Assembly: GCA_947168315.1 (NCBI GenBank)
Contig: CAMVLL010000001.1
Span: forward strand, 1 to 64,000
DNA from: an uncultured Bacteroidota bacterium
GTDB taxonomy: Bacteria; Bacteroidota; Bacteroidia; Bacteroidales; Bacteroidaceae
Length of the DNA stretch: 64,000 nucleotides
Direction: 5' to 3'
The notes beneath the pieces were generated by a model. The model was not told the DNA's origin. It searched no databases and saw nothing but the letters and a program-made list of their open reading frames with translations. Positions 8,329-18,088 of this stretch are shown one piece after another; within the stretch, counting starts at the first letter, position 1, and each line of letters opens with the position of its first letter. The translations under genes were made by a program, and so were the position numbers.

Positions 8329-8372
8329 TAACGAATACACACAGAACAAAACATCGAAAGATTATGTTTCCC

Positions 8373-8443
8373 TGTAGGGGACGACCTTATGTTGTACCGC
8401 AAACAATGTGAATTCACGGACCTACACAAGGTAGGCCCCTACA
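8373..8443. repeat. 71-bp imperfect palindromic dispersed element, copy 1
   Basis: TGTAGGGGACGACCTTATG...CACAAGGTAGGCCCCTACA; second copy of identical length at 12388-12458. Confidence 0.85.
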
Positions 8444-12365: not shown

Positions 12366-12387
12366 AACAAACGATGGATTAATTCCC

Positions 12388-12458
12388 TGTAGGGGACGAC
12401 CTTGTGTCGTACCGCAAACAATGTACAATCACGGGCCTACACAAGGTAGGCCCCTACA
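12388..12458. repeat. 71-bp imperfect palindromic dispersed element, copy 2
   Basis: TGTAGGGGACGACCTTGTGTCGTACCGCAAACAATGTACAATCACGGGCCTACACAAGGTAGGCCCCTACA. Confidence 0.85.
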
Positions 12459-12487
12459 GAGGACAGAAAGCAAGCATTGCTTTTTCT

Positions 12488-12568
12488 GACACTTTTTGGA
12501 CATTTCCGACTATTTCCGACCTTTTTTGGACATTTTCGGACATCTTCGTACAAAATCGGACATTGCCA
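12488..12568. repeat. Helically phased ~10-bp degenerate array (GACATTTTCG-like)
   Basis: GAC/TAC starts at 12488, 12499, 12508, 12518, 12529, 12539, 12549, 12559. Confidence 0.7.
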
Positions 12569-12840
12569 ATTTTCGCGATATTATCTTTGCAGTACAAAGT
12601 TCATGAACACCAAGCGTTCTTTGACATGTTGAAATCTTAAGAATTTACCTTCAAGCCATGCAAAAAGACTTTTCGAAACTCTTTCTCCCGTTTCACTTAC
12701 TTTTCTCTTTCAAATCACATATAGAGATTGTATCATAACCGATGTTGCAACAAAAATGTTAATTATCACTAAGAAATATAGGTGAGATATATCAATTTTA
12801 TGCATATCTAAAAATAATTTAATATTTTATTTCATTTTTA

Positions 12841-12871
12841 TTGGTTTTTTAAAAATTAATCTATATTTTTG
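12841..12871 (+). promoter_or_regulatory. Putative Bacteroidetes sigma-ABfr promoter for susC/susD
   Basis: TTG at 12841, 20-nt spacer, TATTTTTG at 12864-12871 (TAnnTTTG). Confidence 0.6.
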
Positions 12872-13087: not shown

Positions 13088-16000
13088 ATGAACAATGGTT
13101 TTTGTAGAGCATTGACTCTATTGTCATTAATTTTGTGCACGACATTTGCAATCGCGCAACAGAAGACTGTTTCCGGTACTGTTGTTGACCAGTCCGGAGC
13201 GCCTCTCATTGGCGTTAACGTAGTCGTAAAGGGTACTACTACCGGTATCATTACAGATGTTGATGGTAATTACTCTTTGACGGCACCAGCCAATTCTACT
13301 CTTGTTTTCTCTTACATTGGATATAAGACTCAAGAAATTGCAGTCGGCAACCAGGTAAAAATCAACGTTACAATGCAAGAAGAATCAGAGCAAATCGAAG
13401 AAGTCGTAGTCGTTGGTTATGGTACTCAAAAGAAAGTGACCGTAACAGGTGCCGTAGCCAGTGTAACTGGTGAGAAACTGACAGCATCCCCAACTACGAA
13501 CTTGTCTAACGGTATGTTAGGTCGTTTGCCAGGTGTTATCGGCTTCCAGCGTTCTGACGAGCCGGGCGGTGGCGCAACTACCATCCGTATCCGTGGTAAC
13601 AATACATTAGGTAGCAAAGACCCGTTGATCGTAGTCGATGGTGTCGCTGACCGTGCCGGTGGTATGGACCGTATCGATCCTAATGATATTGAAAGTATAT
13701 CTGTGTTGAAAGACGCTGCTGCTTCTATCTACGGTTCTCGTGCTGCAAACGGTGTAATCTTGATCACTACAAAGAAGGGTAAAGAAGGAAAAACAAATGT
13801 ACAGTTCACTGGAAGCTACGGTTTCTCTAAACCAACTTTGTTGCCTGAAATGTGTGATGCTTACGAATACGCTACCATGATTAACGAAATTCAGCCAGGT
13901 GCTTATTCAGATGAGGAGCTGGCTCTATATAGAAATGGTAACGACCCATGGGGACACCCAAATACCAATTGGTACAAAGCAGTTATCAAAAACTTCTCTC
14001 CGATTTACCGTGCTGATTTAAGTATCAATGGTGGTACAAACAAGATGAAGTATTATGTAAACTTTGGTACAAACGGTGAAGATGGTATTTACAAGCACTC
14101 AGCAAACCGCTATGACCAATACGGAATACGTGCGAACTTAGACTTTAAGTTGAGCGAGTATATCAGTTTATCATACGGAACGACCGCTCGTTACCAATAT
14201 ACTCAGTATCCTGCTAAGTCCGCAAGTTCAATCTTCTCTGCTACTCGTCGTAGTAAACCGACATTGCCGGCATATTGGCCAACAGGTGAAGTAGGTCCGG
14301 ATATCGAGTATGGTGATAACCCAGTAGCGACAGCATCAGATGCTGCCGGATGGAATCACCAAAAGAATTACTATATCCAGAACAATGTAAAATTGACCAT
14401 CGATATTCCTTGGGTAAAAGGATTGAAGTTCACCGGAACAGCTTCTTACGATAAACGTTTCTATAACGGAAAGAACTGGAACCAACCAGTAGTATTGTAT
14501 TCTTGGGACGGTGTAACTGAAGACTCATCAGGTTTGACTCCTTATAAAGCTTGGATTTCTGACCCACGTTTAACCCGTACAGATAATGACTTCACTGATT
14601 GGCTGCTCAATGGTGTACTGAGTTGGGATCGCACATTTGGTCGTCATACAGTAGGTATCATGGTCGGTATCGAAGGTCAGAGCAAAGATAGAGATTATTT
14701 GCAGGCTTATCGTCGCTACTTCCCATCAACAGCATTGACCGATTTGGATTTGGGTAGTGTAACCGGTATGACTACTGCAGGTAACTCTTACACAGAAACC
14801 CGTCGTAATTACTTCGGTCGTGTTTCTTACAACTACTTAGAGCGTTATCTGTTTGAGTTCGTTTGGCGTTATGATGGTTCATACCGTTTCCCATCCGAGA
14901 ATCGCTACGGATTCTTCCCAGGTATCATGGCTGCATGGCGTGTATCTGAAGAGCCTTGGTTCAAGGAGAAAGTTAAATGGATGGATTATTTGAAGGTACG
15001 TGCTTCTATTTCACAGACAGGTAACGATATCTTAACAGATGCTGATAGCGTTATTGACCAAAGTATCCAATACCTGAACACATTTGCTTTCCAAGGCACA
15101 GGTTGGATCTTCGGAACAAAAGAGTCACAACGTTTATATCCGTCACGTACACCAAACCCAAGCATCACCTGGGAGCGTGGTACAACTTACGATGTTGGTT
15201 TGGAAATGAAGTTCTTTGACAATCGTTTGAGCATTGAAGGCGACTGGTTCCTCCACAAACGTACAGATATGTTGATCACCCGTGCCGCTTCATTCCCACA
15301 GATTGCCGGTTTCACACTTCCTCGTGAAAACTTAGGTAAGATGCAGAACACAGGTTTCGATGCTTTAATTGACTGGCAAGACAAAGTTGGCGAAGTAGGC
15401 TACAATCTCTCTTTAAATATGTCATATGCTCGCAACAAGGTGACATTCTGGGATGAAATCAATAGCGATGATGTACCTGAATGGCAACGCGCAACTGGTC
15501 ACCCAATACCAACCAGCGGTACATACGCTGCGTTAAGAGACGGTGGTGGTTTGTACTACAAAGCCGATGGCGTATTCAACACTCAAGAGGAATTAGACAA
15601 TTATCCTCATTGGGCTGGTGCACAGTTAGGTGACGTGAAGTTCGTAGATATAAACAATGATGGCAAGATCGACTGGAAAGACCGCATCCGTTCTGACAAG
15701 AACCAGACGCCACGCTTTGTAGCTGGTTTCACCGTAGGTCTGAATTACAAGAACTTTGACTTAATGGCAATGTTCCAAGGTGCAATGGGCGCTGAAACTT
15801 ACATTCAAACATGGTCTGGTACCGTAGGTAATTTCTTGAAAGAATACTACGACCAGCGTTGGACGAAAGATAATTGGCAATCAGAGCATCCACGTACATA
15901 TGAGCGTGAGAATCAATACTGGATTAACAACGCTAACACGATGTTCTTGCGTAACAACGACTACATTCGTTTAAAGAACGTAGAAATTGGTTATACCTTA

Positions 16001-16168
16001 CCTAGGGGTATCAGCAAGATAGGCGTATCGAAGTTGCGTTTCTTCATCAACGGACAGAATATCTTCACGACCTGTGGAGTACCGGGCGACCCAGAAAATA
16101 CTGCTGCCAGCTTCGACTATTATCCACAGAGACAGTACTATAGTGTAGGTTTAACAGCTAACTTCTAA
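13088..16168 (+). CDS. SusC/RagA family TonB-linked outer membrane protein
   Basis: 1026 aa; carboxypeptidase-like N-terminus VSGTVVDQSGAPLIGVNVVVKGTTTG, EEVVVVGYGTQKK, LKDAAASIYGSRAANGVILITTKKG. Confidence 0.97.
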   Translation: MNNGFCRALTLLSLILCTTFAIAQQKTVSGTVVDQSGAPLIGVNVVVKGTTTGIITDVDGNYSLTAPANSTLVFSYIGYKTQEIAVGNQVKINVTMQEESEQIEEVVVVGYGTQKKVTVTGAVASVTGEKLTASPTTNLSNGMLGRLPGVIGFQRSDEPGGGATTIRIRGNNTLGSKDPLIVVDGVADRAGGMDRIDPNDIESISVLKDAAASIYGSRAANGVILITTKKGKEGKTNVQFTGSYGFSKPTLLPEMCDAYEYATMINEIQPGAYSDEELALYRNGNDPWGHPNTNWYKAVIKNFSPIYRADLSINGGTNKMKYYVNFGTNGEDGIYKHSANRYDQYGIRANLDFKLSEYISLSYGTTARYQYTQYPAKSASSIFSATRRSKPTLPAYWPTGEVGPDIEYGDNPVATASDAAGWNHQKNYYIQNNVKLTIDIPWVKGLKFTGTASYDKRFYNGKNWNQPVVLYSWDGVTEDSSGLTPYKAWISDPRLTRTDNDFTDWLLNGVLSWDRTFGRHTVGIMVGIEGQSKDRDYLQAYRRYFPSTALTDLDLGSVTGMTTAGNSYTETRRNYFGRVSYNYLERYLFEFVWRYDGSYRFPSENRYGFFPGIMAAWRVSEEPWFKEKVKWMDYLKVRASISQTGNDILTDADSVIDQSIQYLNTFAFQGTGWIFGTKESQRLYPSRTPNPSITWERGTTYDVGLEMKFFDNRLSIEGDWFLHKRTDMLITRAASFPQIAGFTLPRENLGKMQNTGFDALIDWQDKVGEVGYNLSLNMSYARNKVTFWDEINSDDVPEWQRATGHPIPTSGTYAALRDGGGLYYKADGVFNTQEELDNYPHWAGAQLGDVKFVDINNDGKIDWKDRIRSDKNQTPRFVAGFTVGLNYKNFDLMAMFQGAMGAETYIQTWSGTVGNFLKEYYDQRWTKDNWQSEHPRTYERENQYWINNANTMFLRNNDYIRLKNVEIGYTLPRGISKIGVSKLRFFINGQNIFTTCGVPGDPENTAASFDYYPQRQYYSVGLTANF

Positions 16169-16180
16169 AATTTTACGAAT

Positions 16181-18088
16181 ATGAAGAATAAATTCAAATA
16201 TATATTAATGACAGCCGGTGTTTGTGGTGCAATGAACCTTGTTTCTTGTAGTTCAGACTTTATGGATGTTAAGCCTCATGACCAATATGACCAAGAGGCA
16301 GTCTTTGAGGATGCCGGTTTGACCCAATCTCTTGTTAATAGTATTTATTACTACGCAAAGGATGGAGCTCGCGAGCATACGACTACCGGTTTAACCGATG
16401 ATGCTTACTTTACCCACAACTACGGCCAGATTGCTGTTAATGAATCGACCGTATCAGGAGGTAACTTGCAATGGTACAGTCAATCCAACTGTCCTTTCCG
16501 TTGGGATCATGCATTCACAGGCATTTATTACGCCAACTTAGTTTTAGCTAACATTAATGACGTACCTGATAACGGCAGCGCAAGTCCAAGCGTAATGGAA
16601 GGAGAAACCCGTTTCTTACGTGCTTATATTTACTCTAATTTGCTCCGTGGATTCGGTGGTGTACCTATCATAAAAGACGTTTTCGGTTTGGATGATGCAG
16701 AGGCCGTAAAAGTCCCGCGTAATAGCGTAGGTGAAGTGTTGGATTTCATTATTGAAGATTGCGAAAAAGCATTCAGTTTGTTGCCAGCAACAATGGAAGC
16801 AGGCCGTGCAAACAAATGGGCAGCCAAAGCATTGGAAGCACGTATGTATTTACATGTAGCCAGCGAATTGTACGCCGACCGCACCATCAACACTTTGAAA
16901 TGTAACCAATACGACGGTGACCGTTCTCAATTGTATCAAAAAGCATTAGCCGCTGCTAAGGAGGTTATCAACAGCGGTAAATACTCATTGTTAGATTGTC
17001 GTGCCGGCAGTGTGGAGGAAATAGCAGACTTATATCATCGGATTGCTATTTCTAATAATTCTGAAACTATTTTTGCACGCCAATTCGACTTGACTCGTGT
17101 AACGAACTGGATTGGTTTGCAACACGGTCCTAACGGTTACCACAACTGGTCTGGTACCACTCCTACCAACGACTTCGTTATGTCATTCGAAATGGCTGAT
17201 GGTTCTGTTAGTGATGCCATGACGACCGTAGGTGAAAGAATGGATAGCAACCCATATTTGGGCCGTGAACCACGATTCTACGCTGACTTAGGTTTTGATG
17301 GTAGTATCTGGGGACGTAAACGTGCTGCCGATGGTTATGCATTAGATCCTACACCTCTGGGCAACTTACAATGTGGTGTATACGAATTGTCATCAGGAGG
17401 TAAAGCTGTAGAAGCTGTATACTATCCGGATGCAACAGGTAACCCAGTTAAACTGTGGAGTGGAAACGGAACATATGGTTGCGATACTCGTAAGGGCCCG
17501 ATCGAGGACTGGAACGGTTCTTTCACTTCTTACTATGAGAAGAAATTGATTGATACAACTGTTGACGCTGCTAACTCCGCACAGGTTACTCCATATCCAT
17601 ACATCCGCTTAAGTGAGATGTACTTGATTGCTGCAGAAGCTTGCATCGAATTAGGTCAATTAGACGAAGCTATTTCGTTTATCAACCCGTTGCGCGCTCG
17701 TATCAGCATGCCAGACACAGAAGCGACATTGGCTGTCCGTGGACAATCGAAAAACCAGGCAGACATGCGTGACTTACTTCGACGTGAGCGTCGCTCAGAA
17801 TTAGCATACGAAGATTCTCGTTACTTCGATGTTCGTCGTTGGATGATTGCAAATGTTACTCAGAACAAACCTGTCACGGGTATGAGTGTGTGGGCAACCT
17901 TGAAACCGGGCAAAACCGCATCTGCTCCTTACGTACACAATGAAGATATATGGGACTACCATTATGTGGTAAGCGACCTGTCTTATCGTGAAAATCGTAA
18001 ATGGGATAATAAAATGTATTTTGCTCCAATCAATGTGAACGAAATAAATCGTACAGATGGAATTATCGTTCAGAATCCAGGACATTAA
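16181..18088 (+). CDS. RagB/SusD family nutrient uptake outer membrane lipoprotein
   Basis: Lipobox LVSCSSDFMDVKPHDQ; LRAYIYSNLLRGFGGVPII; YPYIRLSEMYLIAAEACIELGQ; immediately after susC. Confidence 0.96.
   Translation: MKNKFKYILMTAGVCGAMNLVSCSSDFMDVKPHDQYDQEAVFEDAGLTQSLVNSIYYYAKDGAREHTTTGLTDDAYFTHNYGQIAVNESTVSGGNLQWYSQSNCPFRWDHAFTGIYYANLVLANINDVPDNGSASPSVMEGETRFLRAYIYSNLLRGFGGVPIIKDVFGLDDAEAVKVPRNSVGEVLDFIIEDCEKAFSLLPATMEAGRANKWAAKALEARMYLHVASELYADRTINTLKCNQYDGDRSQLYQKALAAAKEVINSGKYSLLDCRAGSVEEIADLYHRIAISNNSETIFARQFDLTRVTNWIGLQHGPNGYHNWSGTTPTNDFVMSFEMADGSVSDAMTTVGERMDSNPYLGREPRFYADLGFDGSIWGRKRAADGYALDPTPLGNLQCGVYELSSGGKAVEAVYYPDATGNPVKLWSGNGTYGCDTRKGPIEDWNGSFTSYYEKKLIDTTVDAANSAQVTPYPYIRLSEMYLIAAEACIELGQLDEAISFINPLRARISMPDTEATLAVRGQSKNQADMRDLLRRERRSELAYEDSRYFDVRRWMIANVTQNKPVTGMSVWATLKPGKTASAPYVHNEDIWDYHYVVSDLSYRENRKWDNKMYFAPINVNEINRTDGIIVQNPGH

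Follow-up and report, generated by a model that had tools for sequence, protein, structure and literature searches.

Helically phased 10-bp repeat arrays at Bacteroidales promoters as candidate operators for DUF4248-type proteins

The array and its surroundings in the window

The window, which here means the whole 64,000-nucleotide stretch of Bacteroidaceae DNA that was analysed, contains a SusC/SusD gene pair and, some distance ahead of it, a series of short direct repeats leading into a promoter-like box (Table 1). The start of SusC, the only annotated candidate target in the window, lies 490 bp downstream of this promoter, which implies a leader of approximately 490 nt, and no intrinsic terminator was found between the array and SusC. 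The original prediction that no annotated ORF starts at the array is correct locally, but it leaves out SusC at 13088. Another promoter-like box (12864-12871) lies closer to the SusC/SusD genes than the array promoter does, and neither a DUF4248 gene nor an HU gene was found in the window.

Table 1. Positions of the array, its promoter elements and the neighbouring genes in the window
Feature	Positions	Strand	Remarks
Phased array, eight 10-bp units, consensus NNNNCGGACA	12488-12562	+	In exact register with the -7 box; paralogous arrays on contigs C15 and C68 of the same genome (G000)
First unit of the array	12483-12492	+
Last unit of the array	12553-12562	+
19-bp spacer, last unit to -7 box	12563-12581	+	Same length in relatives and where the array is built of other units; lag-10 identity ends at -20
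TATCTTTG, Bacteroidales -7 element (TAnnTTTG)	12582-12589	+	Assigned from sequence; kept at related loci
Perfect palindrome GTTCATGAAC	12599-12608		Just past the predicted start; common to the C15 copy
Putative nine-codon ORF, MNTKRSLTC*	12603-12632	+	Sequence only; MNTIRSLTC* in the C15 copy
Second -7-like box TATTTTTG	12864-12871	+	217 bp ahead of the SusC start; candidate alternative SusC/SusD promoter
SusC-type TonB-dependent receptor (CarbopepD_reg_2, Plug)	13088-16168	+	First annotated gene downstream of the array
SusD-family lipoprotein, SusC partner	16181-18088	+	From annotation and domains

The trinucleotide GAC recurs at 12488, 12499, 12508, 12518, 12529, 12539 and 12559, with TAC at 12549, so that every coordinate originally given for the eight positions, their phase of about 10 bp and the TATCTTTG box proved right. 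Tandem Repeats Finder describes 12482-12564 as a repeat of period 10 with 8.2 copies and the consensus TTTTCGGACA. Divided into exact 10-bp steps, the array consists of the units TTTCTGACAC, TTTTTGGACA, TTTCCGACTA, TTTCCGACCT, TTTTTGGACA, TTTTCGGACA, TCTTCGTACA and AAATCGGACA, the last of which stops at 12562, 19 bp ahead of TATCTTTG. The self-identity of the array at lag 10 is 41/60, the top value in the 64 kb over lags 7 to 13; 1000 local dinucleotide shuffles averaged 25.7 and peaked at 35 at this lag, and the periodicity was reached by none of these and by none of 60 whole-window dinucleotide shuffles. Phased A/T tracts are found at about 12493, 12502, 12512, 12522, 12532 and 12552, and transcription is predicted to start near 12595.

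Several other identities of the region were considered. The ORF that overlaps the array (12404-12640) gave no Pfam hit, and a coding sequence or known RNA as the identity of the array was rejected, the only Rfam match being a chance one to Xist. A boxA-like antitermination leader (GTTCTTTGACAT) was also rejected: it occurs once in the genome of the window and, of two complete relatives, has one occurrence in the first and none in the second, and this sporadic occurrence leaves a general rRNA-type leader unsupported. A REP-like inverted repeat (CCTGTAGGGG...CCCCTACA) is located at 12385-12460 and 8371-8443 of the window, with more than a dozen further full or partial copies in the same genome. 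In a search for the orthologous SusC locus in relatives, the nearest SusC of another genome was only 41% identical, which precludes a like-for-like comparison of the region upstream.

Copies in the same genome and in relatives

By pattern search only, three arrays were counted in the genome of the window (G000, a draft with 89% completeness and 167 contigs totalling 2.57 Mb), namely the window array, one on contig C15 and one on contig C68. GGACATTG, the length of the 19-bp spacer and TATCTTTG are common to all three, and the copies differ from one another by whole-unit changes in which the phase is preserved; the window and C15 copies also have approximately 50 bp past the -7 box in common. 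The C15 array precedes the gene of a CD225-type membrane protein, and no clear downstream gene was found for the C68 array. An HU-gene relic after the C68 array was rejected, as it amounts to a 7-residue resemblance to an HU start with no tblastn support. No DUF4248 gene was found in the 89% complete G000 by Pfam or a custom profile, and the 1.2 kb around each of its three arrays are free of HU genes; the window copy is thus an orphan member of the array class.

Among 61 genomes of the genus, GGACA-N5-GGACA-N5-GGACA occurs in 17, with zero hits for the reversed-pattern control, and GGACA-N5-GGACA-N19-TAnnTTTG (one mismatch) has sites in 11, with controls at or near zero. The (NNNNCGGACA)n-N19-TAnnTTTG layout is present three times in G000 and about 36 times in 11 of the 61. 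Exact matches to the promoter layout were obtained in 4 of 301 sampled genomes of the family, G000 among them, and a scan of the genomes of 84,980 species yielded 29 stretches, all from Bacteroidales and mostly from herbivore-gut assemblies. A scan of viral contigs yielded one stretch, and the search of plasmids gave no match. Conservation in relatives, on which the original prediction had been made to hinge, was found for both the array and its phase. Many arrays sit near contig ends, those at L098, L102, L117, L249 and L254 at distances of 30-300 bp; the array cassettes are probably multicopy and break the assemblies, and the array counts are lower bounds because so many lie near contig ends.

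Short palindromes (TTTCGAAA, TTCCGGAA) also follow the promoter at GGACA loci of other genomes, in the same position as GTTCATGAAC in the window, and such a palindrome is a possible second operator. Some of the hits in the 17 genomes belong to a different repeat, direct repeats of GGGACA 10 bp apart in conjugative-transposon-like DNA (L025, L028, L041 and L043-L045, from G026, G029, G031, G032 and G036). In these five genomes they break the 19-bp rule to TAnnTTTG, and they are possibly iterons or a transfer-related site.

Gene neighbourhoods were compared at 37 array loci, 36 in the genus and one elsewhere in the family, in a different genus. At 23 of these loci a DUF4248 gene (PF14053) is found no more than 500 bp away, usually divergent and separated from the downstream gene by the array; the other 14 have no DUF4248 nearby. 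At 18 of the 37 loci, an HU-family gene (PF18291, HU-HIG) begins 52-220 bp past the promoter, and the predicted product of an array promoter in relatives is usually an HU-family mRNA. Other arrays precede VapE-like (PF05272), ClpC and M28-peptidase genes; the GGACA arrays at L094 and L116 are immediately upstream of ClpC genes, which suggests a link to protein quality control. Genomes with arrays have a mean of 5.4 DUF4248 genes, versus 1.4 in those without (Mann-Whitney p = 3e-5). A conserved 5' hairpin was sought in the transcripts from array promoters and was not significant (mean z -0.4). DUF4248 relatives with 33-54% identity also occur in ten unannotated faecal 'Bacteriophage sp.' contigs (phage hits H1-H10), and for this reason the gene may travel on mobile elements.

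The DUF4248-adjacent phased-array class defined here comprises at least three units of about 10 bp in phase, a 19-bp gap to TAnnTTTG, an adjoining DUF4248 gene and an HU-HIG gene just downstream. The window has the first two, but no DUF4248 gene adjoins its array, and the gene downstream is SusC at +490, with no HU gene in the window. Most related arrays are housed in the DUF4248/HU-HIG/VapE-like neighbourhoods of Bacteroidales (PF14053, PF18291, PF05272), whereas the window has neither DUF4248 nor HU.

Unit types and covariation with DUF4248

The relation to DUF4248 was generalised with a set of 70 DUF4248 genes of at most 85% mutual identity, whose nearby promoter boxes were compared with control boxes; the periodicity and covariation statistics refer to loci from one genus. 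The boxes near these genes show a lag-10 self-identity of 0.44, compared to 0.29 in the control (z = 7.1). Lag 20 is also raised (z = 5.1), the other lags are flat, and the signal stops at -20. When the GGACA types are left out, the identity is 0.387 at lag 10 against 0.26-0.29 at most other lags. Because taking the best box for each DUF4248 gene gives periodic ones an advantage, an equal threshold was applied at other lags as well: a lag-10 array is found at 34 of the 54 DUF4248 genes with a nearby box, versus 4-6 at other lags.

The unit types include GGACA, TCAACT, TCTACA/TCGACA, GTGTCA, GGGGTCA, GAGACA and GTGACA, and in clear cases the gap from the array to TAnnTTTG is 19 bp. DUF4248 genes in genomes without GGACA arrays have arrays of other 10-bp units nearby, again with the 19-bp spacing. 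The TCAACT array has a single occurrence in each of two complete genomes, where it lies beside its DUF4248 paralogue. Outside the family, the -7 layout is clear at one or two of 20 DUF4248 loci, and other 10-bp arrays are present there. At two loci from another family of the order (L222, L234), arrays near DUF4248 that are built of AGTTCACAAC and AGGAACGTTT units are followed by TATACTTGCA instead of TATCTTTG.

Among 34 representatives, the more two DUF4248 proteins differ, the more their units differ as well (Mantel r = 0.545), and none of 5000 permutations gave a value as high. The correlation persists for pairs less than 60% identical (r = 0.32, p = 2e-4) and less than 50% identical (r = 0.30, p = 6e-4). 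For the 19-bp spacer, the corresponding value below 50% identity is r = 0.11 (p = 0.15), although spacers covary with DUF4248 too once close pairs are included. Co-inheritance of the cassette thus explains part of the unit-protein covariation; since the spacer is uncorrelated below 50% identity, shared descent of the flanking DNA is not the whole explanation. The protein positions best tied to the unit, in a small sample, are 14, 23 and 31, the latter two of which fall within the second helix.

The AlphaFold model of DUF4248, of very high confidence (pLDDT 97), shows four helices and a short pair of strands packed into one compact domain. A profile search against PDB chains gave nothing credible, including no similarity to solved BldC members, and Foldseek against the PDB gave a best E of 1.5 and no HTH hit. 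An HTH identity found no match in these sequence and fold searches, and DNA binding by DUF4248 is put forward here as a proposal because no solved relative was found by sequence or fold. The passages found in a search of the open literature mention no DNA target for DUF4248.

A candidate operator and its alternatives

Starting from the layout, its fixed spacing, its recurrence, the adjacency of DUF4248 and the unit-protein covariation, all of which are observed, we propose with a probability of roughly 0.6 that the arrays are phased operators to which a DUF4248-type protein binds cooperatively at a housekeeping promoter, and that the window copy is an orphan among them. The array would be a multi-site operator ending over the -33 region of a TAnnTTTG promoter. 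A DUF4248-type protein would bind one protomer per 10-bp unit, cooperatively, head to tail and on one face of the DNA, and once bound it would set the activity of the promoter. The typical target would be an HU-HIG gene beside a divergent DUF4248 gene, and arrays at VapE-like, ClpC and M28 peptidase genes would respond in trans. We infer binding by DUF4248, its cooperativity and activation; the main argument for DUF4248 as the reader of the array is that the unit sequence covaries with the DUF4248 sequence. The cooperative binding to phased sites before a promoter that had been predicted for the window gains strong backing from the 19-bp spacer, the recurrence and this covariation, as far as sequence comparison can speak to it.

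Housekeeping promoters of Bacteroidetes have a TTTG consensus at the -33 spacing. The array promoter of the window resembles them in the -7 TAnnTTTG, which TATCTTTG matches and which is kept in relatives, but lacks TTTG at -33, where GGACATTG/the last array unit is found instead. Activation by the array-bound protein is favoured on the grounds that a good TTTG is missing at -33 and that the last unit sits there instead; repression is possible. The 10-bp spacing is slightly below the 10.5 bp of relaxed DNA, and by our own reasoning a filament would either have to wind the DNA a little tighter or run along a shallow helix.

The nearest model, and a solved precedent for this kind of binding, is BldC of Streptomyces, a 68-residue protein that forms head-to-tail cooperative multimers on direct repeats about one helical turn apart, acting at the smeA-ssfA and whiI promoters on 9-bp repeats or loosely matching repeats (PMC5859096). 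The likeness lies in a small protein (DUF4248 has about 70 aa) and in promoter-proximal, helically phased direct repeats, and the shortened BldC site TGTCCGAATTGTCCGAATTG closely resembles the reverse complement of the window array, TGTCCGAAAATGTCCGAAAA. However, the present arrays have more units, exactly 10 bp apart, a fixed -7 spacing and many unit types, and the searches by sequence and by fold link DUF4248 to neither BldC nor any other solved structure; BldC is offered as an analogy, and membership of DUF4248 in its family is not claimed. RdfS, Xis and other wHTH recombination directionality factors are likewise small, can form DNA filaments and are often found on mobile elements, but RdfS has no consensus motif (PMC11963761), whereas the present arrays have an explicit one.

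For the window copy, the strict spacing in three copies argues for recent function and the degenerate middle units argue for decay; the array may be active under a regulator missing from the assembly or may be a relic. It is possible, if on balance doubtful, that the copy is a functionless relic decaying after the loss of DUF4248 and HU, with SusC/SusD using the 12864-12871 box. This would fit the absence of DUF4248 from G000 and of HU within 1.2 kb of its three arrays, the degenerate mid-array units (TTTCCGACTA, TTTCCGACCT), the closer -7-like box upstream of SusC, and the mere 7-residue resemblance to an HU start after the C68 copy. The exact 19-bp spacing and TATCTTTG in all three G000 copies, the in-phase unit changes and the leader of about 50 bp common to two of them speak against decay. 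A relic of this kind would affect no more than the window copy and can stand beside the operator reading for the class as a whole.

It is unlikely that a different trans-acting protein, such as the HU-HIG product or an unrelated regulator, binds the arrays and that DUF4248 is a passenger of the cassette. The three G000 arrays do persist without a detectable DUF4248, some arrays of Prevotella and Mediterranea (L256, L260, L269) are near an HU gene with no DUF4248, and DUF4248 has no recognised DNA-binding fold. Paralogues of one genome, however, have different units; units track DUF4248 below 50% identity and the spacer does not; and several array-bearing DUF4248 loci were located via DUF4248 rather than HU. 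HU-type proteins generally have low sequence specificity, which tells against HU as the binder.

Intrinsic curvature was the other option in the original prediction; it would act through phased A/T tracts with no sequence-reading protein. The six tracts of the window array (12493 to 12552) bear this out locally, but only 13 of the 34 representative arrays have such tracts, and lineage-specific cores recur (GGACA, TCAACT, GTGTCA, GGGGTCA). Curvature was rejected as the main explanation, for which it is very improbable, and could be at most secondary. A functionless chance or low-complexity repeat expansion, which would give whole-unit differences between copies such as those seen, is scarcely credible given the 0/1000 shuffles, the promoter spacing fixed across genomes and the confinement to Bacteroidales and to DUF4248/HU loci.

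Returning to the operator reading, the recurrence of one layout with varied motifs at DUF4248 genes points to an undescribed family of regulators reading repeated DNA motifs. In its fullest form, which we hold tentatively and at slightly less than even odds, DUF4248 would be a diversified family of regulators that are very small, recognise specific sequences and polymerise on helically phased arrays, the own 10-bp unit of each paralogue 19 bp from a -7 box would make up a natural protein-DNA recognition code, and the window array would be an orphan operator now placed before a SusC/SusD nutrient-uptake operon. What follows for the window itself is modest, a single orphan promoter whose use is uncertain. 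If true, the proposal would give a function and a DNA target to DUF4248, a family whose function is unknown and which is common among gut Bacteroidales, and at least 30 natural protein-operator pairs of differing specificity would make a recognition code derivable. It would also provide orthogonal small regulators for Bacteroides engineering and would explain the control of HU-family and VapE-like gene cassettes.
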